From the NCBI RefSeq assembly GCF_038022665.1, contig NZ_CP150629.1, positions 2,648,480-2,712,479 on the forward strand: a DNA stretch of 64,000 bases, in the 5' to 3' direction. This stretch comes from Methanolobus sp. WCC4. GTDB taxonomy: Archaea; Halobacteriota; Methanosarcinia; Methanosarcinales; Methanosarcinaceae. A model generated the notes under the pieces. That model worked only from the letters and a program-made list of their open reading frames with translations, had not been told where the DNA came from and did not search any database. Positions 11,607 through 24,180 of the stretch are shown piece after piece (within the stretch, counting starts at the first letter, position 1; every line of letters starts with the position of its first letter). The position numbers and the translations under genes are program-made.

Positions 11607-11624
11607 ATGGGAGATATGAATAAA

Positions 11625-11981
11625 ATGGTAAAAGTAATGATCGTTGACGATGCTGCATTTATGCGCATGGTCATCAAGGATATTTTAACAAAAAATGGTC
11701 ACGAAGTAGTTGCCGAATGTGTTGATGGTCTTGATGCCGTTAATCAGTATCCACAGGTAAAACCTGAGCTTGTCTTTATGGACATAGTCATGCCAAATAT
11801 GGAAGGGATCGATGCTCTCAAGAAGATCATGGAAATGGACCCTGCTGCAAAAGTTGTCATGTGCTCATCCATAGGACAGCAGTCTGTTGTGACAGATGCC
11901 CTTAAAACAGGTGCCCTTGACTTCATAGTCAAACCGTTCGATGCAGCTAAGGTGCTGGAAGTAATCGGAAAAGTAGTCTGA
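11625..11981 (+). CDS. cheY: Chemotaxis response regulator CheY
   Basis: A stand-alone receiver domain of about 118 residues. It has the acidic pair in KVMIVDDAAFMRMVI, the phosphoacceptor Asp in LVFMDIVMPN, the Ser in MCSSIGQQS (Thr/Ser switch position), and Lys in DFIVKPFDA. CheY phosphorylated by CheA acts on the archaellum motor through CheF, which is not in this window. Several in-frame ATGs exist (11607, 11616, 11625, 11637). A GGGAG lies at 11609-11613, so 11625 is my choice, with 11607 possible. It is the first gene of the che locus; cheB follows with a one-base gap. Confidence 0.93.
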   Translation: MVKVMIVDDAAFMRMVIKDILTKNGHEVVAECVDGLDAVNQYPQVKPELVFMDIVMPNMEGIDALKKIMEMDPAAKVVMCSSIGQQSVVTDALKTGALDFIVKPFDAAKVLEVIGKVV

Positions 11982-11982
11982 T

Positions 11983-13077
11983 ATGACGATCAATGTACTT
12001 GTAGTCGATGACTCTGCGCTCATGCGTAAAGTAGTCTCTGACATCTTAACAGAAGATCCGGAGATGAAGGTTGTAGCTACTGCAAGGAATGGACAGGAAG
12101 CCGTAGAAAAGGTCGAGAAATTCAGGCCTGATGTTGTAACTCTTGACGTTGAGATGCCAGTTCTGGATGGATTGCATGCTCTTGGATATATTATGAGTGA
12201 GTGTCCAACCCCGGTAGTGATGTTAACAGCGATCGACTCCAGGTCAGCAGAAACTACATTGAATGCATTCGAGTATGGAGCGGTGGATTTCATACAGAAA
12301 CCATCAGGAAATATAAGTTTGAACATCGCGGATATTGCTAAAGAGATCCGCATTAAAGTAAAAATGGCCTCTAAAGTGGACCTGAAGAAATTGGGGTTCA
12401 TGGAAGAACACGTGAAGAGATCACGTGAAAATGAAGGGAAAAAAGTGCGTCCCACACAAAGAAAACAGGCTATCAAAAAGAACAGACACCATGCAAATGG
12501 CAAGATCATTGCTATTGCCTCTTCAACAGGCGGACCTCGTGCTCTTGAACAGGTCATACCTAAATTACCAGGAAACCTGAAAGTTCCTGTAGTGATCGTC
12601 CAGCACATGCCTGCAGGATTTACAGCATCACTTGCACAAAGACTTGATGGACAGTCCCAGATAACTGTGACCGAGGCAAAGGATGGAGATGTACTCCATG
12701 CAGGACATGCATACCTTGCTCCGGGGAACTATCACATGGAGATAGTATCCAGGGAGAAGGGAGGCGTTTTCCATGAAGTCATCAAACTCAATCAGAACCC
12801 AAAAGAACAGGGAGTTAGGCCCTGTGCCAACATATTGTTCAAGTCACTGGTACCTATCTATGGATCAAACATAGTAACTGCTGTTCTGACCGGTATGGGG
12901 ACAGATGGGGCGGACGGAGTAGAGGATATCAAGAAAGCCGGTGGCAAAGCAATTGCAGAGGATGAAAGATCATGCGTGGTCTATGGCATGCCTAAGGCGA
13001 TTGTGCAACGAGATCTTGCAGACAGTATCGTGCCACTGGAAAAAGTATCAATTGAGATACTCAGGATGCTGGAGTGA
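11983..13077 (+). CDS. cheB: Chemotaxis protein-glutamate methylesterase CheB
   Basis: A 364-residue CheB. A receiver domain occupies residues 1-125 (VDDSALMR, D55 in TLDVEMPVLDG, K106 in FIQKPSG), a basic linker about 130-172, and the C-terminal methylesterase/deamidase the rest. The catalytic triad is visible: S181 in ASSTGGP, H208 in IVQHMPAGFT and D308 in TGMGTDGADG. It removes methyl groups from MCP glutamates and is activated by CheA. The start codon follows the cheY stop by one base, implying translational coupling. Confidence 0.97.
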   Translation: MTINVLVVDDSALMRKVVSDILTEDPEMKVVATARNGQEAVEKVEKFRPDVVTLDVEMPVLDGLHALGYIMSECPTPVVMLTAIDSRSAETTLNAFEYGAVDFIQKPSGNISLNIADIAKEIRIKVKMASKVDLKKLGFMEEHVKRSRENEGKKVRPTQRKQAIKKNRHHANGKIIAIASSTGGPRALEQVIPKLPGNLKVPVVIVQHMPAGFTASLAQRLDGQSQITVTEAKDGDVLHAGHAYLAPGNYHMEIVSREKGGVFHEVIKLNQNPKEQGVRPCANILFKSLVPIYGSNIVTAVLTGMGTDGADGVEDIKKAGGKAIAEDERSCVVYGMPKAIVQRDLADSIVPLEKVSIEILRMLE

Positions 13078-13140
13078 TCCGGTGATCGAAATGTTCAGGG
13101 AAAAAAAGAAGATCATAATGATCCCAGGGTTGGTGTGACC

Positions 13141-15204
13141 ATGGATATGTCAGAATACAAAGAAATATTTAAAGCAGAATCAGAAGAACATCTTCAACAA
13201 CTTAATGATTCTTTACTGGGGCTTGAACAGAATCCCAATGATCTGGAATACATCAATACCATGTTCCGTTCAGCTCATACATTGAAGGGAATGTCAGCAA
13301 CAATGGGTTTTAACACCATTGCAGAGCTGACCCATGAAATGGAGAATCTGATGGATATGGTGAGGAAATCACAGGTAGCTGTGAGCAACGGACTCATTGA
13401 CATTCTTTTCGAGTGTCTCGACACGCTTGAAGCTCTTGTGGAAACAGTTGACAACAATGATCAACTGGACATCAGCACCCTTCAGGCTACGCTTGCAAAA
13501 GCAATGGAGGGAAACCTGCCTGCAAATAATGCAGCAGTGAATGTCACTGAAAACGTGAATAACATAGAGAATGATACTGGAGAAGAAACGATACCTGAAG
13601 AGGAAATATCTCCCGAGATAGGTATTGAACTATCAGATATTGAAAAACAGGCGATCCAATGCGCTGCTGCCGAAGGTAACAGGGTTGTTTCTTTAAAGGT
13701 CGTTCTTGATGATTCCTGCGTCCTCAAGTCAGCCAGGTCCACACTTGTACTTATCAACATCACAAAGATGGGAGAGATCATAAAGTGCGAGCCCAGCGAA
13801 GAAGAGCTGGAGGATGAGAAATTCGATCTTGATTTCACAGTTATATTTGCTACGAAGACCGGAGATGAAGAGATAGTTGCAACCCTGAAGAAGATATCCG
13901 AGATCAAAGATATCATTCCGACAACTATAGCTGATGAAAACTCCGCTTCTGAAGATGCAGAAGAAGATGCTGCTGAGAAAGAGACAGAGAGTAAGAATGA
14001 CAATGAACCACAGCAGAAGAATGCTTCCACGGTTAAAAGATCGGACGCAGTAAAAAGCATACAGAGTGTCAGGGTCAATATTGAAAGACTTGATAATCTG
14101 ATGAATCTCGTGGGAGAACTTATCATTAACAAGATCAGGCTGAACCAGCTTGCTTCCGATCTTAATGCCAAGGATCTCGATGAATCACTTGCAAACCTTG
14201 ACCGTCTTACAAATGAGATACAGACCGAGGTCATGGAATCAAGGATGGTCCCTATAGACCAGATATTCAGCAGATTCCCGAGAATGGTAAGGGATCTGGC
14301 CAAATCCGAAGGGAAGCAGATCAATCTGATCATTGAAGGAAAAGAGATCGAACTTGACAGAACGGTCCTCGATGAGATAGGAGACCCGCTCGTCCACCTG
14401 CTTCGTAATGCGGTCGATCACGGTATTGAACCTGAGGAAGAGCGTAAGAAGCTTGGAAAACCTGTTGCAGGTCTTGTCAGACTGGCTGCCTCACGTCAGA
14501 GGAACAGTGTCCTTATTGAAGTAGAAGATGACGGAAAGGGAATGGAACCCGGACATCTGAGAGATGTGGCTGTCAAGAAAGGGATTATGACCAGGGAGGA
14601 AGTGGACAAGCTCTCTGATACAGATGCCCTTAACATTATTTTCATGCCTGGATTCAGCGGGGCCAAAGTGGTCACTGACGTATCCGGAAGAGGCGTGGGA
14701 ATGGACGCTGTCAAGACAAAGATAGAAGCCCTTGGCGGAACTGTGAAGATTACTTCAGTACCCGGACAGGGTAGTATCATGAGATTACAGCTTCCTTTGA
14801 CAGTAGCTATCATCCAGTCCCTGATGGTCACTGTTTCCGATGAGACATATGCCATTCCACTTGGTAATGTTATCCGCGATGTAGGGATCAAGGCCAGTGA
14901 CATAAAAAGCATAGAAGGAAAAGAAGTGATCATGCTGAGAGGCGAGGTGTTGCCACTCCTCAGACTGCATGATGTACTTGACTGTCCGGCCGAACAGGAA
15001 GACAAAGAGAACCTGATAGTTGTTGTTGTCGAAAAGATGGGAAACAACATAGGATTTGTTGTTGACGACCTTCTTGGACAGCAGGAAGTAATAATCAAAA
15101 CACTTGACAATAAAATTTTGAAGAATACCAGGGGATTTGCAGGTGCAACCATTCTGGGAGATGGTAGTGTCGCACTTATCCTGGACATTGCTACATTGAT
15201 CTAA
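13141..15204 (+). CDS. cheA: Chemotaxis histidine kinase CheA
   Basis: About 687 residues with the full CheA layout: HPt domain with the phosphorylated His in SAHTLKGMSATMGF (about H46), a P2-like domain around 160-270 flanked by acidic linkers (SEDAEEDAAEKETE), the dimerisation helix pair (RLDNLMNLVGELI), the ATPase domain (LLRNAVDHGIEPEEER, DDGKGM, VSGRGVGMDAVK), and the CheW-like regulatory domain to the end. It phosphorylates CheY and CheB in response to receptors. The ATG at 13141 is preferred over the GTG at 13135; GGTGTGA precedes it. cheC follows after 15 bases. Confidence 0.97.
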   Translation: MDMSEYKEIFKAESEEHLQQLNDSLLGLEQNPNDLEYINTMFRSAHTLKGMSATMGFNTIAELTHEMENLMDMVRKSQVAVSNGLIDILFECLDTLEALVETVDNNDQLDISTLQATLAKAMEGNLPANNAAVNVTENVNNIENDTGEETIPEEEISPEIGIELSDIEKQAIQCAAAEGNRVVSLKVVLDDSCVLKSARSTLVLINITKMGEIIKCEPSEEELEDEKFDLDFTVIFATKTGDEEIVATLKKISEIKDIIPTTIADENSASEDAEEDAAEKETESKNDNEPQQKNASTVKRSDAVKSIQSVRVNIERLDNLMNLVGELIINKIRLNQLASDLNAKDLDESLANLDRLTNEIQTEVMESRMVPIDQIFSRFPRMVRDLAKSEGKQINLIIEGKEIELDRTVLDEIGDPLVHLLRNAVDHGIEPEEERKKLGKPVAGLVRLAASRQRNSVLIEVEDDGKGMEPGHLRDVAVKKGIMTREEVDKLSDTDALNIIFMPGFSGAKVVTDVSGRGVGMDAVKTKIEALGGTVKITSVPGQGSIMRLQLPLTVAIIQSLMVTVSDETYAIPLGNVIRDVGIKASDIKSIEGKEVIMLRGEVLPLLRLHDVLDCPAEQEDKENLIVVVVEKMGNNIGFVVDDLLGQQEVIIKTLDNKILKNTRGFAGATILGDGSVALILDIATLI

Positions 15205-15219
15205 AAATGAGGGAATAAC

Positions 15220-15837
15220 ATGGCAGAAATGGACGAAATGACAAAGGGAGCATTTCAGGAAGCAGGAAATATTGGAATGGGCCATCTGGCCACCTCACTT
15301 TCAAAAATGGTGAACAGGGACGTTAAGATCGACATCCCTACTGTTGAAATGATGAGTCTGGAAGAGATAATCACAAAGAGTAATGAAGAAGGCAGGAACA
15401 AGAGCGTCGTAGGTATACATCTGCATATGACAGGTGATGTTACCGGTGGGACCCTTATACTGCTTCCTAAATTCTCAGCACTTTCATTTTCAGACCTGCT
15501 TATGAAAAAATCCATAGGCTCTACAAACAAGATAGAAGAACCACAGATAAGAAAACTTCGTGAGATGGGACTTAACCTCTGTAGTTCCTACATGCGTGTT
15601 GTAAATGAGTTCTTAGGAATAAACCTCAAGATAGGTGACCCGAACATCGAGGTGAACCTGGAAGGAGTAGGTGACTTCATTAGGCAGGAGATCGGTGACC
15701 TTGCTGATGAGTTCATAGTTGTGAAAGGAGAATGCCTGATACCTTCCACAAATTCAAAGAATGAATTCAACATGCTCTTCGAACCAGGTGCATCAGACAT
15801 TATCATGGCAGCTGTTATGAAAAAGATGATGGGATAA
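15220..15837 (+). CDS. cheC: CheC-family protein 1 (second catalytic site degenerate)
   Basis: 205 residues of the CheC/CheX/FliY phosphatase fold. CheC dephosphorylates CheY-P and binds CheD. Each half of a typical CheC carries an E-x-G-N-I helix. The first is intact (AFQEAGNIGMGHLATSLSKM). The second reads LREMGLNLCSSYM: the Asn position is Leu, so this half is probably inactive. The protein is followed after a single base by the FtsA-like ATPase gene. It is one of four CheC-type genes in the locus and the most divergent of them. Confidence 0.85.
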   Translation: MAEMDEMTKGAFQEAGNIGMGHLATSLSKMVNRDVKIDIPTVEMMSLEEIITKSNEEGRNKSVVGIHLHMTGDVTGGTLILLPKFSALSFSDLLMKKSIGSTNKIEEPQIRKLREMGLNLCSSYMRVVNEFLGINLKIGDPNIEVNLEGVGDFIRQEIGDLADEFIVVKGECLIPSTNSKNEFNMLFEPGASDIIMAAVMKKMMG

Positions 15838-15838
15838 G

Positions 15839-17959
15839 ATGAGTGGTTCCCATTTTGCGCTGGATATCGGAACAAGGACCGTTGTTGGGCTCATTACAGA
15901 TCAAGAGCACCTGAACATCAGGGCTGCCTGCATACACGAACATGGCGAGAGAAGTATGCAGGACGGCCAGATACATGATGTTGACAAGGTAGCGAAAGTA
16001 GTGAGTGAGGTCAGGAAGGATCTGGAAGGGCAAATAGGACACGAACTCTCAAATGCATCTGTCGCCGTTGCCGGCAGAGCATTAAAGACATCAAAAATAA
16101 GACTTTCTCTGGAGATCCCCTACAGGGAGATCACAAAACAGGATATCTCCGAGCTTGAGTTCGAAGCTGTTGCAAGAGCAGGGAATGAACTGGGAGCTGA
16201 TGAAGGGTTCAACTGTGTGGGATACTCTGTTGTCAGTTACGAGCTTGACGGGCAGAGGATATCCAACATAATAGGACAGAAGGGCAATTCCATTTCCGTG
16301 GAAGTACTGGCAACTTTTCTACCCGAGGCTGTGATCAATAGTATGTTCGCTGTCCTTGATAGGTGCGGACTTGAAGCCTCCAGTGTGACACTGGAACCGA
16401 TCGCTGCATTGAATGTGGCCATACCGGCAGATATGCGCAAGCTCAACATTGCACTTGTGGATATCGGGGCTGGTACATCAGACATTGCAATTACGGATAA
16501 TGGAACTGTCATCGGCTATGGAATGGTGCCGGAGGCAGGGGATGAGATCACGGACTTCATCTGTGACAGGTATCTTGTGGATTTTAAAAAGGGAGAGATG
16601 ATCAAAAGATCCCTTACTACGCAGGAGACAATTGAACTGGAGGACATCTTTGGAGTGGTCACGGAAGTTCCTGTTAGCCAGGTAATCTCTGACATCGAGG
16701 AAGAGGTAGACAAACTGGCGCTACATATCGTTGAAGAGATAAAGAAGCTCAATAACAGAACTCCCAGAGCTGTAGTGCTCGTTGGAGGAGGGTCACAGAC
16801 AGCAGGACTGAAAGAGCACATATCCAGACATCTGGAACTACCGATACAAAGGATAGGATCCCGTCTTCCAAAACAGGTGGAGGACTTTTCAGATAGCACC
16901 GGTATGATCAACGGTGCGGACATGATAACGCCCATGGGAATAGCAAGTATGGGCATCAGGAAAGAAGGGATGGAATTCATCGATGTTACTGTGAATGGTT
17001 CCGATGTGCATCTTCTGGATGTCAACGGGGCATCCATTATGGATGCACTTGTTGCTGCAAAGATCAAACGCCTCTACCCGCGCCCGGGAATGGCACTTAG
17101 TTTTAATGTTAATTCAGAATTCATCACCGTTGAAGGTGAGATGGGAGAACACGCGATGATCACCATCGATGGGGAGAAAGCAACCCTTGGAGACCATATT
17201 CACAAGGGAGCTGCAATAGACTTCACAGCACCGGTAGATGGTAAGGATGCGCATGTGAAGATAAAAGACCTCATCGAAAGGATCGGGATCAGGAACGATA
17301 TCAGGATCACGGTCAATGGAGAGGGAAGAGAACAAGATCCTTTTGTCACGATAAATGACAAAAAAGCATCTATTAACGATAATGTTCCTGACAGGGCACA
17401 GGTAGTGATAAGAACTGCCAGTTTACAGGACATCCTTGAACAGGAATTCGACACTGCAGAAGCAGAGATGATCACGATCACGATCAATAACCGTATACAG
17501 TATTTTGACAGCACAAAGTTCGTTGTAAAACTTAACGATGAGGTGATCGACCCCTCCATGCTCGCAGATACACTAATCGAGGATGAAGATAGGATAGATA
17601 TCAAAAAGGCCGAGTTCGAATACAGGCTGGAAGATATCCTTTCAAAACCCGAAGATGGCAGAAAGATAACCGTGGTCCTGAACGGCGAGGAAGTCATCTT
17701 CGATGGTTCCATGCCGTCTATCAGCCTTAACGGGAAGAGAACGGACCTTTCTGCGAAGGTGAAGGATGGCGACAATGTCAGCTTCAAGAATGGAGATGAA
17801 GCGGACCCCATTCTTTCTGATCTTTTTGAATTTATGGATATTAAAAAGGAAGAACTTGTTGGCAAGAGGATGAGACTCCTTGTGAACAATGTTCCGGCCA
17901 GGTTCACAACCCCACTGAGAGATGGAAACAATGTGACTATAGAATTTGTAGAGGGATAA
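15839..17959 (+). CDS. FtsA/PilM-like actin-fold ATPase with C-terminal beta-rich repeats
   Basis: 706 residues. Residues 1 to about 375 are an actin-fold ATPase of the FtsA/PilM/MreB group: phosphate-1 DIGTRT at 9-14, phosphate-2 VDIGAGTSDIAI at 207-218, and adenosine motif VVLVGGGSQTAGL at 312-324. The segment between (about 85-165, AVAGRALKTSKIRLSL onward) has the place of the FtsA SHS2 (1C) domain. Residues 376-706 hold several short repeats of the type ITVNGEGRE, ITINNRIQYFD, VVLNGEEVIFDG and LLVNNVPARF, each followed by a DGDNV-like turn, probably beta-grasp modules. There is no C-terminal amphipathic FtsA anchor. Long FtsA-like proteins with such tails occur in Firmicutes. It sits one base after cheC and two before cheR, so it is coexpressed with chemotaxis. 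Its role is unknown; a polymer- or array-positioning ATPase is a guess. Confidence 0.8.
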   Translation: MSGSHFALDIGTRTVVGLITDQEHLNIRAACIHEHGERSMQDGQIHDVDKVAKVVSEVRKDLEGQIGHELSNASVAVAGRALKTSKIRLSLEIPYREITKQDISELEFEAVARAGNELGADEGFNCVGYSVVSYELDGQRISNIIGQKGNSISVEVLATFLPEAVINSMFAVLDRCGLEASSVTLEPIAALNVAIPADMRKLNIALVDIGAGTSDIAITDNGTVIGYGMVPEAGDEITDFICDRYLVDFKKGEMIKRSLTTQETIELEDIFGVVTEVPVSQVISDIEEEVDKLALHIVEEIKKLNNRTPRAVVLVGGGSQTAGLKEHISRHLELPIQRIGSRLPKQVEDFSDSTGMINGADMITPMGIASMGIRKEGMEFIDVTVNGSDVHLLDVNGASIMDALVAAKIKRLYPRPGMALSFNVNSEFITVEGEMGEHAMITIDGEKATLGDHIHKGAAIDFTAPVDGKDAHVKIKDLIERIGIRNDIRITVNGEGREQDPFVTINDKKASINDNVPDRAQVVIRTASLQDILEQEFDTAEAEMITITINNRIQYFDSTKFVVKLNDEVIDPSMLADTLIEDEDRIDIKKAEFEYRLEDILSKPEDGRKITVVLNGEEVIFDGSMPSISLNGKRTDLSAKVKDGDNVSFKNGDEADPILSDLFEFMDIKKEELVGKRMRLLVNNVPARFTTPLRDGNNVTIEFVEG

Positions 17960-17961
17960 AA

Positions 17962-18783
17962 ATGCTTGATACCATGCAAAAAAAAGATGCAGACTATGAG
18001 ATGCTTAAGAAACTCATACACCAGAAGCTTGGATTCAACTGTGAACAATACAAGGATTCACACTTCAAGAGAAGGATCGATGTCAGACTACGTGCCACCA
18101 ATTCGAAGACATACGGAGAATATGTTGCATGCCTGCAAACTGACAGGAATGAATTTCCGGAACTAATGGAGACACTGACCGTTAACGTAACGAATTTCTT
18201 CAGGAATCCCGAGGTTTATGATGTCATTGAGAAACAGGTACTTCCTGCGATCATCAAAGCAAAGAGCACTGGTCTGCGATCAATTCGCATATGGAGTGCA
18301 GGATGTTCCATCGGTGTCGAAGCATATTCCATCGCAATGTTGTTGAAGCACCTTCTGGGTGATGATTTCAAGAGATACAGTATCAAGATCACGGGAACTG
18401 ACATTGACAAGGAAAGTCTTGCCAGGGCCCAGAGAGGTGTTTACTCCAGGATGGAGGTGAAGGATGTAAGACCTGCTTTCCTTAATAAGTTCTTTACAAA
18501 GGAAGGTAACGATTACGTCATCAACGATGAACTGAAGAAAATCACACAGTTCAAGAAACAGGATCTCATATCCGGACCAAAGATGAGCGGTTTTGATGCA
18601 GTCTTCTGCAGGAATGTAACAATATATTTCGAGAAGGAACTTCAGGAAAAGCTCTACATGGATTTCTATAATGCCCTTTCAAAGGATGGGTTCTTCGTAA
18701 TGGGAAAGACAGAGACATTACTTGGACCTTCAAAGGACACTTTCAAACCATTCAATTCCAAAGAAAGGATCTACCAGAAATGA
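17962..18783 (+). CDS. cheR: Chemotaxis protein methyltransferase CheR
   Basis: A 273-residue CheR. The N-terminal helical domain contains FKRRIDVRLRATNSKTYGEY, and the methyltransferase domain has the SAM-binding IRIWSAGCSIGVEAYSIAML, then ITGTDIDKESLARAQRGVYS and DAVFCRNVTIYFEK. Canonical CheR reads W-S-A-x-C-S-T-G-E-E; here I-G-V-E replaces T-G-E-E, a mild variation near the SAM site. It methylates MCP glutamates, opposing CheB. The visible C-terminus of the MCP at 59.7 kb has no CheR-binding pentapeptide. Confidence 0.95.
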   Translation: MLDTMQKKDADYEMLKKLIHQKLGFNCEQYKDSHFKRRIDVRLRATNSKTYGEYVACLQTDRNEFPELMETLTVNVTNFFRNPEVYDVIEKQVLPAIIKAKSTGLRSIRIWSAGCSIGVEAYSIAMLLKHLLGDDFKRYSIKITGTDIDKESLARAQRGVYSRMEVKDVRPAFLNKFFTKEGNDYVINDELKKITQFKKQDLISGPKMSGFDAVFCRNVTIYFEKELQEKLYMDFYNALSKDGFFVMGKTETLLGPSKDTFKPFNSKERIYQK

Positions 18784-18837
18784 CATGCGTTGTCCTTGAG
18801 AAGTGACAACATCTAAAATGTGATCAGGAGTTAGCAA

Positions 18838-19455
18838 ATGAAAGATAAGATAGCAGATCTGACCGAATTACAGATCAGTGCACTAAGAGAAGTTGTTAAT
18901 ATCGGCGTTGGTAATGCTGTTACTTCCCTTTCAAAGATGATCTCTAAAGAGGTCAGGATAGAAGTTCCGGGACTTAAGGTCGAATTGATCGAGAGAGTGC
19001 CGGAAGTTTCTGGCGGAGCAGATGCTGTCGTAGCTGGTGTTATTATACAGGTAGCAGGTGACATTGAAGGATACATAATGATGATGCTTTCCGAAGAATC
19101 TGTAAAGACCGTATGTGCAACCATCACAGGTGACCATAATGCGGATATCCTGGATCCTTTGAGCCAGTCCCTCATAGAAGAGGTGGGGAACATACTGGCA
19201 GGATCCTATGTCAGTTCACTTTCAGATTTCCTTAACCTGGGCATTAAGCTGTCGCCCCCTATGCAGACCTTTGACATGCTTGGTGCGATAATCGACCATA
19301 TCCTGATAGAGATGAGTAAGAAAGCTGAGCATGCACTGCTCTTTGACACATTGTTCACGATCGAAGGACATGAGATGGATGGAATACTCCTGACACTTTT
19401 CGATCCGGATTCAATGGATGTACTGCTTGAACGCATAGACGGAATGATGGGATAG
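18838..19455 (+). CDS. cheC: CheC-family protein 2 (both sites intact)
   Basis: 205 residues. Both phosphatase helices are complete: LREVVNIGVGNAVTSLSKM in the first half and LIEEVGNILAGSYVSSLSDF in the second, each with Glu and Asn three residues apart. This is the most canonical CheC of the four and the likeliest true CheY-P phosphatase and CheD partner. It begins 54 bases after cheR, with GATCAGGAG ahead of the ATG. The stop codon is TAG. Confidence 0.93.
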   Translation: MKDKIADLTELQISALREVVNIGVGNAVTSLSKMISKEVRIEVPGLKVELIERVPEVSGGADAVVAGVIIQVAGDIEGYIMMMLSEESVKTVCATITGDHNADILDPLSQSLIEEVGNILAGSYVSSLSDFLNLGIKLSPPMQTFDMLGAIIDHILIEMSKKAEHALLFDTLFTIEGHEMDGILLTLFDPDSMDVLLERIDGMMG

Positions 19456-19466
19456 GAGAGAGAAAG

Positions 19467-20081
19467 ATGAACATAATACTTGATAAATTCTATTATGATG
19501 CATTGAATGAAGTAGGGAACATCGGGATGGGAAATGCGACCACTGCCCTGTCACAACTTGTCGACAAGACAATAAGCGTAAGCGGTTCATCCCTTACCCT
19601 GCTGGACGCACGTGACCTTAGCAAGAATGTACACCTTGACAGAGTCGGAGCGATCGTACGTGTAATGGGAGACCTGAACGGCGGATTCATACTCAGTATC
19701 AGAAAACAGCATTCAGATGCACTTACTGAACTGCTGGTAAAGGATAGTGAACATGCAGAGGATGAATATCTGAGAAGGTCGGCTTTTGTCGAGGTCTCGA
19801 ACATCCTTGCAGGAAGTTACTACAATGCACTTTCAAAGTTCCTGAATCTCTCAATAGTCCCTTCGCTACCAAAAGTAACAGAAGGAACCTCTGATGAGAT
19901 TTTCACCAAGGCAAAACAGCACATCAACGGGAAGATGGAACATGTTTTCGGATTGACAACGCTTTTCGAGGTTATGGGAGAAGATGAATACCACAGCCTG
20001 GGAGGGGACATGTACATGTTACTGGATTCAGCTTCATTGCAGACCATACTTGAAAGGATAGAAGAGATGCGTACGAGATAG
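19467..20081 (+). CDS. cheC: CheC-family protein 3 (both sites intact)
   Basis: 204 residues. The first helix is LNEVGNIGMGNATTALSQL and the second FVEVSNILAGSYYNALSKF; both keep the Glu-x-x-Asn pair. It is about as long as its neighbour at 18838-19455 and lies 11 bases after it (GGAGAGAGAAAG before the ATG), which marks a tandem duplication. cheD starts two bases after its TAG stop, so this copy is translationally linked to cheD. Confidence 0.93.
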   Translation: MNIILDKFYYDALNEVGNIGMGNATTALSQLVDKTISVSGSSLTLLDARDLSKNVHLDRVGAIVRVMGDLNGGFILSIRKQHSDALTELLVKDSEHAEDEYLRRSAFVEVSNILAGSYYNALSKFLNLSIVPSLPKVTEGTSDEIFTKAKQHINGKMEHVFGLTTLFEVMGEDEYHSLGGDMYMLLDSASLQTILERIEEMRTR

Positions 20082-20083
20082 AC

Positions 20084-20557
20084 ATGATAATAGTGGGAAT
20101 GGCAGATAGTGCGGTGGCGAAGAAGCCTTTGAAGCTCACGACCCTTGGACTTGGGTCATGTGTAGGTATCTCACTGTATGATAAGAGCACTGGTGTTGGC
20201 GGAATGGTACATATCATGCTTCCAACCGTTGAAAGTGCAAGATCAAAAGAAAATATTGATAAGTTTGCCGATACCGGCATACCCGCACTTCTTGACAGTA
20301 TGGTAAAAGAAGGTGCATACAAGCACCGCACGGTCGCTAAGATCGCAGGTGGTGCGAGCATGTTCTCATTCAATTCCAACTCCAATCTCAATGTAGGAGA
20401 GAGGAACATAGCAGCTACAAAGACAGCTCTTAAAGCATTGAAGATTCCCATTGTTGCAGAAGATACAGGACAGAATTACGGACGTACGATCATACTTGAC
20501 ACAGAGAATGGAGAACTGACCGTCAAGAGTGCGCTTAAAGGCATAAAAACATACTAA
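20084..20557 (+). CDS. cheD: Chemoreceptor glutamine deamidase CheD
   Basis: 157 residues. The catalytic Cys is C26 in LGLGSCVGISLYD and the His is H43 in GGMVHIMLP; KIAGGASMF supplies the conserved Gly-rich loop after the third catalytic position (Thr/Ser region). CheD converts receptor glutamines to glutamate and also activates CheC when bound to it. Coupled to the preceding cheC. The AT-rich gap after it carries a TATA box, so the che transcript may end or restart here. Confidence 0.95.
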   Translation: MIIVGMADSAVAKKPLKLTTLGLGSCVGISLYDKSTGVGGMVHIMLPTVESARSKENIDKFADTGIPALLDSMVKEGAYKHRTVAKIAGGASMFSFNSNSNLNVGERNIAATKTALKALKIPIVAEDTGQNYGRTIILDTENGELTVKSALKGIKTY

Positions 20558-20567
20558 TATATAAAAG
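20557..20567 (+). promoter_or_regulatory. TATA box before the membrane DUF835-like gene
   Basis: ATATATAAAAG, near-consensus, 40 bases before the ATG at 20607 and directly after cheD. It suggests a second promoter inside the che locus for the last three genes. Confidence 0.5.
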
Positions 20568-20606
20568 TAGAATAATATATCTGAGATAGATACAGGTGGC
20601 GGCAGG

Positions 20607-21611
20607 ATGTTAACCCCGGAGATTACAATAATACACATAATATTCGTTTCCATATCGATGGCATGCGGATTGGCAGCGATATACTTCTGGCTCAGGGTCT
20701 ATTTTGAGACTAAGAAAGGATCCATTGCCTGGTTACTCCTGGCACTTACAGCCATATTCCTTATCACAACATCAGTATTCCCATCGATCGCCATAAGTTC
20801 CCAGGATGCGGATATAACCGAAATGATATTGTTGTTCATGGGTCTGTGGAGTATGGTCTATACAGGCATCTTCGCTGCGGCCGGAATTATGATGTTCCAG
20901 GCATTCCAGACAGTACCGAGGGAGAAACTTGGAGATTTCCTGATCGAAGGAATGGTATTCACTGAACCTGAAGAGGGAATGGAGACACTTCCGGAAGTAG
21001 AGCAGATATCCACCCTTCTTAGCAGGTCCACCCTGATAGAGTACACACCCAGGACCAGGTATGAGGATTCTGTCATAGAGATATGCCTGCGTCTTTACGG
21101 AGAAATGGTGAACACCGTCCTTGTATCCACACAGCCTCGTACCGCCATGTACCAGGAAAAGATCGGAGACCTCATGGATATCGGTGCTATGAAATTCATA
21201 GAGATCTCATCCACCAACAAGAATCTCAGCAACGAGGAAGGGATCATCAAATTACCAGATGATGAACTTGATAAGTTCTTCGAACTTACCAGCAAGCTTC
21301 CAAAGGGTTGTGCTGTTGTCTTCGAACCGATCACCCAGCTACTCCTTACAGAAGGAGAAGAGAAGTGCTATACATTCATTTCAGAAATGGTTCAGAGGTT
21401 TGCATCCAGCGAACTTCTGCTTGTAGGTATGATAAACAAGGCCGCCCATGATGAACAGACTATCTCACGCTTTGAAGGATTATTCCTGAACCTTGCAGAG
21501 GAAGAAGATGCAAAGATACGACTGGTAAAGGGTGGAAAAGAGGAATACATCAGATTCTATGTTGGAGATAAATTCTACATGGAACCGGATGTTGAAGTAA
21601 AACTTGAATGA
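20607..21611 (+). CDS. Membrane protein with DUF835/KaiC-like cytoplasmic domain
   Basis: 334 residues. Three hydrophobic segments fill residues 1-95 (IIHIIFVSISMACGLAAIYF, WLLLALTAIFLI, LWSMVYTGIFAAAGIMMF). The cytoplasmic part (about 130-334) looks like the RecA/KaiC-type fold seen in DUF835 and related archaeal domains: TLIEYTPRTRYEDSVI, VNTVLVSTQPRTAMYQEKI and GCAVVFEPITQLLLTEGEEK, ending with RLVKGGKEEYIRFYV. There is no Walker A Gly-Lys-Ser/Thr, so ATP hydrolysis is unlikely. Ribosome site GGTGGCGGCAGG lies directly upstream. It overlaps the next gene's upstream region. Its place among che genes suggests a membrane-bound chemosensory accessory; function unknown. Confidence 0.6.
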   Translation: MLTPEITIIHIIFVSISMACGLAAIYFWLRVYFETKKGSIAWLLLALTAIFLITTSVFPSIAISSQDADITEMILLFMGLWSMVYTGIFAAAGIMMFQAFQTVPREKLGDFLIEGMVFTEPEEGMETLPEVEQISTLLSRSTLIEYTPRTRYEDSVIEICLRLYGEMVNTVLVSTQPRTAMYQEKIGDLMDIGAMKFIEISSTNKNLSNEEGIIKLPDDELDKFFELTSKLPKGCAVVFEPITQLLLTEGEEKCYTFISEMVQRFASSELLLVGMINKAAHDEQTISRFEGLFLNLAEEEDAKIRLVKGGKEEYIRFYVGDKFYMEPDVEVKLE

Positions 21612-21627
21612 TACAGGAGAATTGCAG

Positions 21628-22254
21628 ATGGATAAAGAACTGGACAGTTTGTCAATTGATGCTTTCAAGGAAATAGGAAGCATTGGAATGGGGAATGCTA
21701 CAACATCCCTTTCCAGACTGATAGAGAAAAGGGTCCAGTTGAATATGTCGGATGCCAGGCTGTTCGAACCATCCGGCATCATTGATATGATCCCTGAATC
21801 GGTTACCATGACAGGTATAATGGTACCTCTGAAAGGTGACCTGAAAGGACTTGTTATGCTGATGTTCGAATTCAGCAATGCTGTATATCTTAGCAACCTG
21901 CTACTTCAGGGTTTTGAACACGATGATGATCCTAACCTGTATGAATCAGCGCTTCTTGAGACCGGAAACATCATCGCGGGATCATACCTTAACTCACTTT
22001 CATCTTTCCTTGGAATGGAATTACTACATTCCGTACCTGACATCAGTATAGGGAATATAAAGGACATACTTGACAAAGGAATGAGTAAACTGGGAGATAA
22101 ACCTGCAAAGATATTGAACATTGAAACGATGTTCGTGGTCTATTCCTCTGAGAAAGATGTTGGAGCCGGAACTATCTACGGAGATATGTTCCTTTTATTA
22201 GATTCAGATTCACTTGACAAATTACAAAGCTCACTCATGAATATGCTGGGATGA
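21628..22254 (+). CDS. cheC: CheC-family protein 4 (first catalytic site degenerate)
   Basis: About 208 residues. The first helix reads AFKEIGSIGMGNATTSLSRL, where the catalytic Asn is Ser. The second, LLETGNIIAGSYLNSLSSF, is intact. This is the mirror image of CheC 1, which has lost the second site. I start at the ATG at 21628, which follows GGAGA at a normal distance; the longer frame from a TTG at 21604 overlaps the previous gene. It probably binds CheY-P or CheD with reduced or altered activity. Confidence 0.88.
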   Translation: MDKELDSLSIDAFKEIGSIGMGNATTSLSRLIEKRVQLNMSDARLFEPSGIIDMIPESVTMTGIMVPLKGDLKGLVMLMFEFSNAVYLSNLLLQGFEHDDDPNLYESALLETGNIIAGSYLNSLSSFLGMELLHSVPDISIGNIKDILDKGMSKLGDKPAKILNIETMFVVYSSEKDVGAGTIYGDMFLLLDSDSLDKLQSSLMNMLG

Positions 22255-22935: not shown

Positions 22936-23562
22936 ATGATGGACATTGCAATATACTCACTTGTTGATGATATGGTCAGCAAGGCAGGGACTGAAGGTGT
23001 CGTGGAATACTGGCTTCGTGTAGGTGAAAGCTACGCTGAGAGGATGGGAAAAGAAGCATACGTAGGATGGCCAGCCTTTAATGTAGCAATGAAGGATGGA
23101 AGGACATCACTTACAGTTGAGGGAGATGTCAATGTCCAGACCGATCTTGCTATCACAGATAAGGACGGGGATGTCATCGGTTACGTTTATGCCCTTAAGG
23201 TCTGCCCGATGGCACCAAGTATGGGACGATATATCTCAAGGATAGGACCTATCCCGGATTCAGACACCGATGTTGCGGACAGCTATAACAATCGTATCAG
23301 GGATTCCGCAGTTTCAAATTATTGTATAACACACCAGAAGTTCAGAGAAGTTGCAGCTAACAACATCACTGTTGCAAAACAGGCACTTGAATGCCTGCAG
23401 CTTGCAAATAAAGGAATGACCGGTGAAGTGAAGATGGTACCTGAGAACCTTGCAAGGATCAATGTGGATGAGAGACACATCAAGAGTATACTGCGTAATG
23501 CATCCTGTGTCTTTGCCCTCATTGTGAAAGGTAAGAGTGCAGGTGAAGAGATAATCGATTAA
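22936..23562 (+). CDS. Unknown protein, paralogue 1 of a C-x-x-H-Q pair
   Basis: 208 residues; I do not recognise the family. Paralogous to the next gene. Shared features in order: an N-terminal helical region with GVVEYWLRVGESYAERM, a K-V-C-P motif (YALKVCPMAPSMGRYISRIG), then D-x-Y-N-x-x-I-x-x-S-A (DSYNNRIRDSAVSN), then C-x-x-H-Q (CITHQKFREV), and a C-terminal strand ending in CVFALIVKG. The conserved Cys and His could bind a metal, haem or thiol ligand, but this is inference. No signal or membrane segment. A second ATG follows immediately. Own promoter region upstream. Confidence 0.6.
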   Translation: MMDIAIYSLVDDMVSKAGTEGVVEYWLRVGESYAERMGKEAYVGWPAFNVAMKDGRTSLTVEGDVNVQTDLAITDKDGDVIGYVYALKVCPMAPSMGRYISRIGPIPDSDTDVADSYNNRIRDSAVSNYCITHQKFREVAANNITVAKQALECLQLANKGMTGEVKMVPENLARINVDERHIKSILRNASCVFALIVKGKSAGEEIID

Positions 23563-23574
23563 GGGTGATCACAC

Positions 23575-24180
23575 ATGGCTGAGAATATCGAGTCAAATCC
23601 TTTTGTTGATGTATCGGTTTTCCTCTTCTTTGAGGATATATCGGACAAACAGGGTGTTGAAGGTTTTACGAACTATATGGTAGGACAGGCAGAGTCACTT
23701 GCAAAATCAGTACCAGAGGAAGAATACAAGACCTGGGAAGATTTCACAAATGCTGTTATTAACGGAGAATCCGTCCTTTCATCTTTCGAACACATAGGAC
23801 AGATAAGTGAATACGGTTTCGTTACAAAGGTATGTCCATTCTCCAAGGCTATCAGAGAATACATCAAACGTATCGGGAATTTCAATCCTGTACACATGGA
23901 AGCTACCGACCACTATAACCATACTATCCAGCCTTCCGCTGCACACAGTGCATGCATGATGCACCAGACATACAGAAAGGAAGTCGCAAAGAGAATAAAG
24001 ATCGGCGGCAAACCACTCCAGTATGCCCAGATAGCAGCAAAGGCATATACCGGAAAGATAGCACTCCCACCTGAATCATGGAAGAAGGTATTACTGGAAA
24101 AAGCAGGAATATCAGAAACCCAGGGATTCATGGAGATGCGTGAGAACAGCTGTCTTTATCTCCTCTACGTTGAAGAATAA
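23575..24180 (+). CDS. Unknown protein, paralogue 2 of a C-x-x-H-Q pair
   Basis: 201 residues. It repeats the layout of its neighbour: GVEGFTNYMVGQAESLAK, then TKVCPFSKAIREYIKRIGNF, DHYNHTIQPSAAHSA, CMMHQTYRKEV, and the closing strand SCLYLLYVEE. Identity to paralogue 1 is low overall but high in these blocks, so the duplication is old and the blocks mark a functional site. The genes are 12 bases apart and end at a strong terminator, so they form a two-gene operon and may make a heterodimer. Function unknown. Confidence 0.6.
   Translation: MAENIESNPFVDVSVFLFFEDISDKQGVEGFTNYMVGQAESLAKSVPEEEYKTWEDFTNAVINGESVLSSFEHIGQISEYGFVTKVCPFSKAIREYIKRIGNFNPVHMEATDHYNHTIQPSAAHSACMMHQTYRKEVAKRIKIGGKPLQYAQIAAKAYTGKIALPPESWKKVLLEKAGISETQGFMEMRENSCLYLLYVEE

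Follow-up and report, generated by a model that had tools for sequence, protein, structure and literature searches.

Between the cheC and cheR genes of a che operon in Methanolobus sp. WCC4 lies the gene for an FtsA-superfamily ATPase of Bacillota type, and we hold it to be an evenly balanced proposition that this protein, laterally acquired, has an accessory role in the chemosensory apparatus. Few signalling systems have been studied as well as chemotaxis, and to our knowledge no actin-fold ATPase is known to be part of it; the superfamily is known, and the FtsA-like family described here and its chemosensory role appear undescribed. No account of such a protein in chemotaxis or in archaeal che operons was found in the literature searched, whose coverage mostly excluded subscription journals, and an earlier description is possible.

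The gene was read from a window of 64,000 nucleotides of the WCC4 genome, where an open reading frame of 706 codons for amino acids starts one base after the cheC stop and ends two bases before the cheR ATG, in agreement with the coordinates of the initial annotation. It is the fifth gene in the order cheY, cheB, cheA, cheC, FtsA-like gene, cheR, cheC, cheC, cheD, a gene for a 334-residue protein, and cheC (Table 1).

Table 1. Features of the che operon and of the FtsA-like protein, in window coordinates
Feature	Position	Strand	Basis
cheY	11607..11981	+	Pfam Response_reg
cheB	11983..13077	+	Pfam REC and CheB_methylest
cheA	13135..15204	+	Pfam Hpt, P2, H-kinase_dim, HATPase_c, CheW
cheC paralogue 1	15220..15837	+	Pfam CheC E 3e-7
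FtsA-like actin-fold ATPase with beta-grasp tail (706 aa)	15839..17959	+	Fold, motifs, profiles
Actin-fold core, FtsA/PilM type, residues 1-375	15839..16963	+	VIA (Z 34.2 to FtsA 7q6i)
Phosphate-1 motif LDIGTR, residues 8-13	15860..15877	+	L8, D9, G11, T12, R13 invariant, I10 nearly, 32 sequences
Family signature MQDGQIHD, residues 40-47	15956..15979	+	Invariant across 32 aligned sequences
FtsA-specific subdomain 1C region, residues ~80-165 (approximate boundaries)	16076..16333	+	DSSP E83-97, H100-117, E124-136, E148-162; within FtsA alignment
Phosphate-2 motif VDIGAGTSDIA, residues 207-217	16457..16489	+	D208, G210-I216 invariant, 32 sequences
Adenosine motif VGGGS, residues 315-319	16781..16795	+	G316-G318 invariant
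Beta-grasp module 1, residues 378-467	16970..17239	+	SAMP1 Z 8.7, TGS Z 8.2
Beta-grasp module(s) 2, residues 489-595	17303..17623	+	ThiS 1zud Z 9.5; Pfam ThiS 512-588
Beta-grasp module 3, residues 612-706	17672..17956	+	Molybdopterin synthase chain (MoaD) 2q5w Z 6.2, weak
cheR	17962..18783	+	Pfam CheR E 4e-54 and CheR_N; vertical archaeal origin
cheC paralogue 2	18838..19455	+	Pfam CheC E 7e-23
cheC paralogue 3	19467..20081	+	Pfam CheC
cheD	20084..20557	+	Pfam CheD
cheC paralogue 4	21604..22254	+	Pfam CheC

An AlphaFold2 model of the monomer (mean pLDDT 85, pTM 0.61) contains the actin core that had been read from the sequence, and its best match is FtsA (E 2e-27 by Foldseek; Z 34.2 across 359 residues, from 2 to 375 of the model), with PilM (Z 30), EutJ (Z 26), MreB (Z 25) and the nucleotide-binding domain of DnaK (Z 24) among the other matches; a profile search likewise puts FtsA first among relatives of solved structure (E 1e-23). 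Judged on an alignment and profile of 32 family sequences, all three actin-fold nucleotide motifs are present and near-invariant, and certain members outside the alignment have the family signature as MLDGQIHD or MYDGQVHD. The predicted fold places the protein in the superfamily without telling apart FtsA-, PilM- or EutJ-like action, and the actin core would be expected to bind ATP.

Although the broad Pfam domains for FtsA (PF14450, 36.7 against a cut-off of 31.8) and PilM (PilM_2, PF11104, 42.7 against 27) are both reached, the protein scores 112.6 bits with the FtsA equivalog TIGR01174 (curated cut-off 175.85) and 48.9 bits with PilM TIGR01175 (curated cut-off 133), and its scores with EutJ TIGR02529 (NCBIfam E 1e-15) and MreB also lie under the NCBIfam cut-offs. 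It shares with FtsA (7q6i, 1e4f) an actin fold that includes the 1C region and the three nucleotide motifs (Z 30-34, ~360 residues), but it lacks the C-terminal membrane helix, carries a 330-residue beta-grasp tail and the signature MQDGQIHD, and is encoded outside a division cluster, with cheC and cheR on its flanks; no ftsZ was recognised among the inspected Bacillota neighbours of FtsA-like genes. PilM (2ych, 5eou) has the same superfamily fold (Z 27-30) and offers the concept of a cytoplasmic adaptor ATPase, from which the Methanolobus protein differs by its tail, and neither pilN nor pilO is found in the Methanolobus che operon; EutJ (3h1q) and MreB share the actin-fold ATPase core (Z 25-26) over fewer aligned residues (about 250-280). 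Scores below the curated FtsA and PilM cut-offs, together with the missing membrane helix, thus set the protein apart as a separate family within the superfamily, so that the distinction from bacterial FtsA drawn in the initial annotation holds.

The C-terminal 330 residues, previously described as repeated beta-grasp-like modules, are indeed tandem beta-grasp modules by model matches and by Pfam ThiS (E 3e-7), and their top Foldseek match is a multi-ubiquitin-domain protein; one member of that group forms filaments. The resemblance extends to single or tandem modules of multi-ubiquitin-domain proteins (9cd2, 9d5b) and of ThiS, MoaD, SAMP1 and TGS; these, however, have no actin-fold ATPase, and the FtsA-like family has no conserved di-glycine end. 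A functional sulfur carrier or ubiquitin-like modifier was rejected because the family alignment has no conserved C-terminal GG, and S4-domain matches of the tail profile (YabO, HP1423; E 0.2-0.9) were distrusted. The model ends in beta-grasp strands (residues 676-682 and 698-705), with no terminal helix of the amphipathic, membrane-targeting kind seen in FtsA at its C-terminus, and comparison within Methanolobus indicates faster evolution in the tail than in the core.

Among archaea, the gene was found in 14 of 120 genomes of an order-level sample and in 20 of 393 Halobacteriota genomes, all of them Methanolobus. Restriction to that genus was nonetheless overturned by one more carrier, G767, which belongs to another Methanosarcinaceae genus, was not seen in the 393-genome phylum sample and came to light among the che operons of other genera. 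The gene sits between cheC and cheR in the seven Methanolobus loci examined and in the second genus, in each case with a single base between the cheC stop and its ATG; cheR starts no more than four bases past its stop in 7/7 Methanolobus loci, and may overlap it in the second genus. Selection on the Methanolobus gene is purifying, as judged from a dN of 0.11-0.20 against a saturated dS of 1.5-2.7 (dN/dS well below 1), and the kept position and cheC junction, with this low ratio, argue that its presence in the operon is more than chance.

In the che operons of the other Methanosarcinaceae genera examined, the FtsA-like gene is absent and cheC and cheR directly adjoin. In a midpoint-rooted tree, the archaeal sequences form a single group (support 100) separate from every sampled Bacillota row; given this rooting, we infer the direction of transfer, and the narrow archaeal and broad bacterial range, together with the cheC-cheR junctions free of the gene elsewhere in Methanosarcinaceae, favours acquisition from bacteria. 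Lateral acquisition by Methanosarcinaceae is therefore likely. Co-transfer of cheR was rejected, the window CheR being 50-68% identical to most other Methanosarcinaceae CheR and only 32-36% identical to the Bacillota CheR linked to FtsA-like genes. Archaellins occur in 27/27 Methanolobus genomes searched, which suggests that the che system probably drives an archaellum.

Full-length relatives are encoded by 167 of 299 sampled Bacillota genomes (~56%), and the surroundings of 140 of these loci were surveyed over ~6 kb by profile searches of six-frame translations. In 25 of the 140, a cheR lies within 3 kb, against a chance expectation of ~0.55, and in 24 of those 25 it is upstream on the same strand; two more loci have cheB, cheC and cheD within ~5 kb, joined in one of them by cheA. 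The cheR linkage belongs mostly to one broad clade, with two or three scattered cases, and its sub-groups are flanked variously by genes that we take, from their sequences, to be hemB/hemL, hepT, ppdK and a gamma-carbonic anhydrase, so that the pair of cheR and FtsA-like gene is preserved in differing surroundings. For 9 of the 25 genomes, no CheR other than the linked one was found, and it presumably serves the chemosensory system of that genome.

Encoding with che genes thus covers the archaeal loci examined and 27/140 Bacillota loci, the other 113 having no che gene in the ~6 kb examined. Most Bacillota homologues therefore lie outside che loci, a finding that the initial annotation had named as speaking against its chemosensory reading; despite it, the link to chemotaxis is carried by co-occurrence. 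CheW is present in 167/167 carriers versus 83/132 non-carriers among the 299 Bacillota genomes (Fisher p 9e-21, a value that treats genomes as independent and is inflated by shared ancestry, with incomplete assemblies weakening such statistics too), CheR in 163/167 versus 87/132 and FliG in 159/167 versus 87/132. Where the two systems part, the gene is carried by 8 of 12 genomes that have CheW but lack FliG and by 0 of 8 that have FliG but lack CheW (p 0.005, or p = 0.08 when a five-genome clade is collapsed to one; the eight carriers span about four lineages, and five of them form this clade), so that it tracks chemosensory and not flagellar machinery. As 83 CheW-containing genomes do without it, the protein is not a core chemosensory part. 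With CheW in every carrier, the recurrent cheR neighbours and capture into an archaeal che operon, the proposed tie to chemosensory signalling is supported, and it is independent of the single Methanolobus operon.

In the mechanism that we favour, the actin core would bind ATP, and the nucleotide state, possibly with oligomerisation, would be used for scaffold or adaptor work; the multi-beta-grasp tail would dock onto signalling proteins, most likely CheR or receptors, and the docked ATPase would organise the array or give the methylation machinery access to it. The FtsA-like protein would thus be best viewed as an ATP-dependent scaffold or adaptor of the chemosensory apparatus that probably acts with CheR or receptors. 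Somewhat more tentatively, and just short of an even call, the widespread Bacillota family may as a whole be a dedicated chemosensory accessory, working with CheR or receptors by way of its tail and taken up by methanogens into a che operon, in which case it would be the first actin-superfamily component of chemosensory systems. A CheC-regulated polymer, suggested in the initial annotation, lacks independent support, the recurrent Bacillota neighbour being CheR and not CheC.

A role with CheR has to be weighed against that of a polymerising cytoskeletal element which, like ParC/ParP or MinD4/MinD2/CetZ1, would see to the positioning or segregation of the chemosensory array and perhaps of the archaellum; we rate this as a minority possibility of perhaps one chance in four. 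It draws on the FtsA-type core (Z 34), whose matches include double-filament crystal forms, and on the filament former in the group of the tail's top match. Archaea place arrays by cytoskeletal NTPases, with MinD4/MinD2 and CetZ1 as the Haloferax examples (PMC11312570, PMC11621097), and ParP/ParC set a precedent for array positioning in Vibrio (PMC5706961). These systems resemble our candidate in having an accessory part in array organisation or placement, and most are NTPases, but their folds are unrelated (ParA/MinD P-loop ATPases, tubulin-like), so that the analogy is functional only; moreover, function does not follow from a fold match, and what recurs beside the gene is the methylation enzyme CheR rather than CheA or CheW. 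On another reading, the protein would be a general Bacillota motility or envelope factor, FtsA- or MreB-like and active for instance in flagellum assembly or cell shape, its co-occurrence with chemotaxis arising only from both being marks of motile, free-living cells and its archaeal site reflecting motility co-expression. We consider this improbable, at roughly one chance in five: FliG is indeed present in nearly all carriers, and seven or eight related loci adjoin flagellar rod genes, mreB and wecG, but eight genomes with CheW and without FliG, including the five-genome clade, keep the gene, and all eight with FliG and without CheW lack it. It is also kept beside cheR in archaea, which have no bacterial flagellum.

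Less probable again, and on balance doubtful, is an Hsp70- or EutJ-like ATPase that acts on chemoreceptors or CheR as a chaperone or in their assembly, in place of a cytoskeletal scaffold. The EutJ profile match, the structural matches to EutJ and the DnaK nucleotide-binding domain, and a tail that could bind clients agree with it, but the FtsA/PilM match (~330-360 residues, 1C region included) is more complete than that to EutJ (247 residues). That an unrelated bacterial gene, a division paralogue or a selfish gene, was inserted into the che operon by chance seems to us very improbable: it would fit the majority of Bacillota copies, which are not close to che genes, but hardly the one-base spacing kept under purifying selection in a second genus as well as in the examined Methanolobus loci, nor what is seen independently in Bacillota, where the gene is linked to cheR and co-occurs with CheW, and one ~11-kb operon makes up 0.4% of the genome.

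Should the association with chemotaxis be functional, a family present in more than half of the sampled Bacillota genomes would gain a role, and array organisation and receptor methylation in Gram-positive bacteria and archaea would become testable. The archaeon would have taken up a single bacterial gene directly within a che operon, next to cheR, its recurrent neighbour in Bacillota.

Several further observations concern these loci. In seven Bacillota loci (L140, L150, L151, L157, L163, L165 and L168), the FtsA-like gene is flanked on one side by a group comprising mreB, wecG and flgF/G-like flagellar rod genes and on the other by the ctsR-mcsA-mcsB-clpC operon, and in a Bacillota clade with CheW and CheR and without FliG (L264, L269, L284, L287 and L289) it lies just upstream of the atp operon. 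In the window, four divergent cheC paralogues share a single operon (15220-22254). The 334-residue protein of the operon (20607-21611), which has no Pfam match and a chance-level NCBIfam match only, is apparently membrane-spanning in its N-terminal part and is kept in 7/7 Methanolobus loci. Two neighbouring, related proteins of 208 and 201 residues (22936-23562 and 23575-24180) are likewise kept in 7/7 Methanolobus che loci, a pair without a match in a Pfam search that may possibly have a sensory or output role. Beyond the che operon, the WCC4 genome has four more CheW-domain genes, three of which adjoin a ~478-residue protein of one family.
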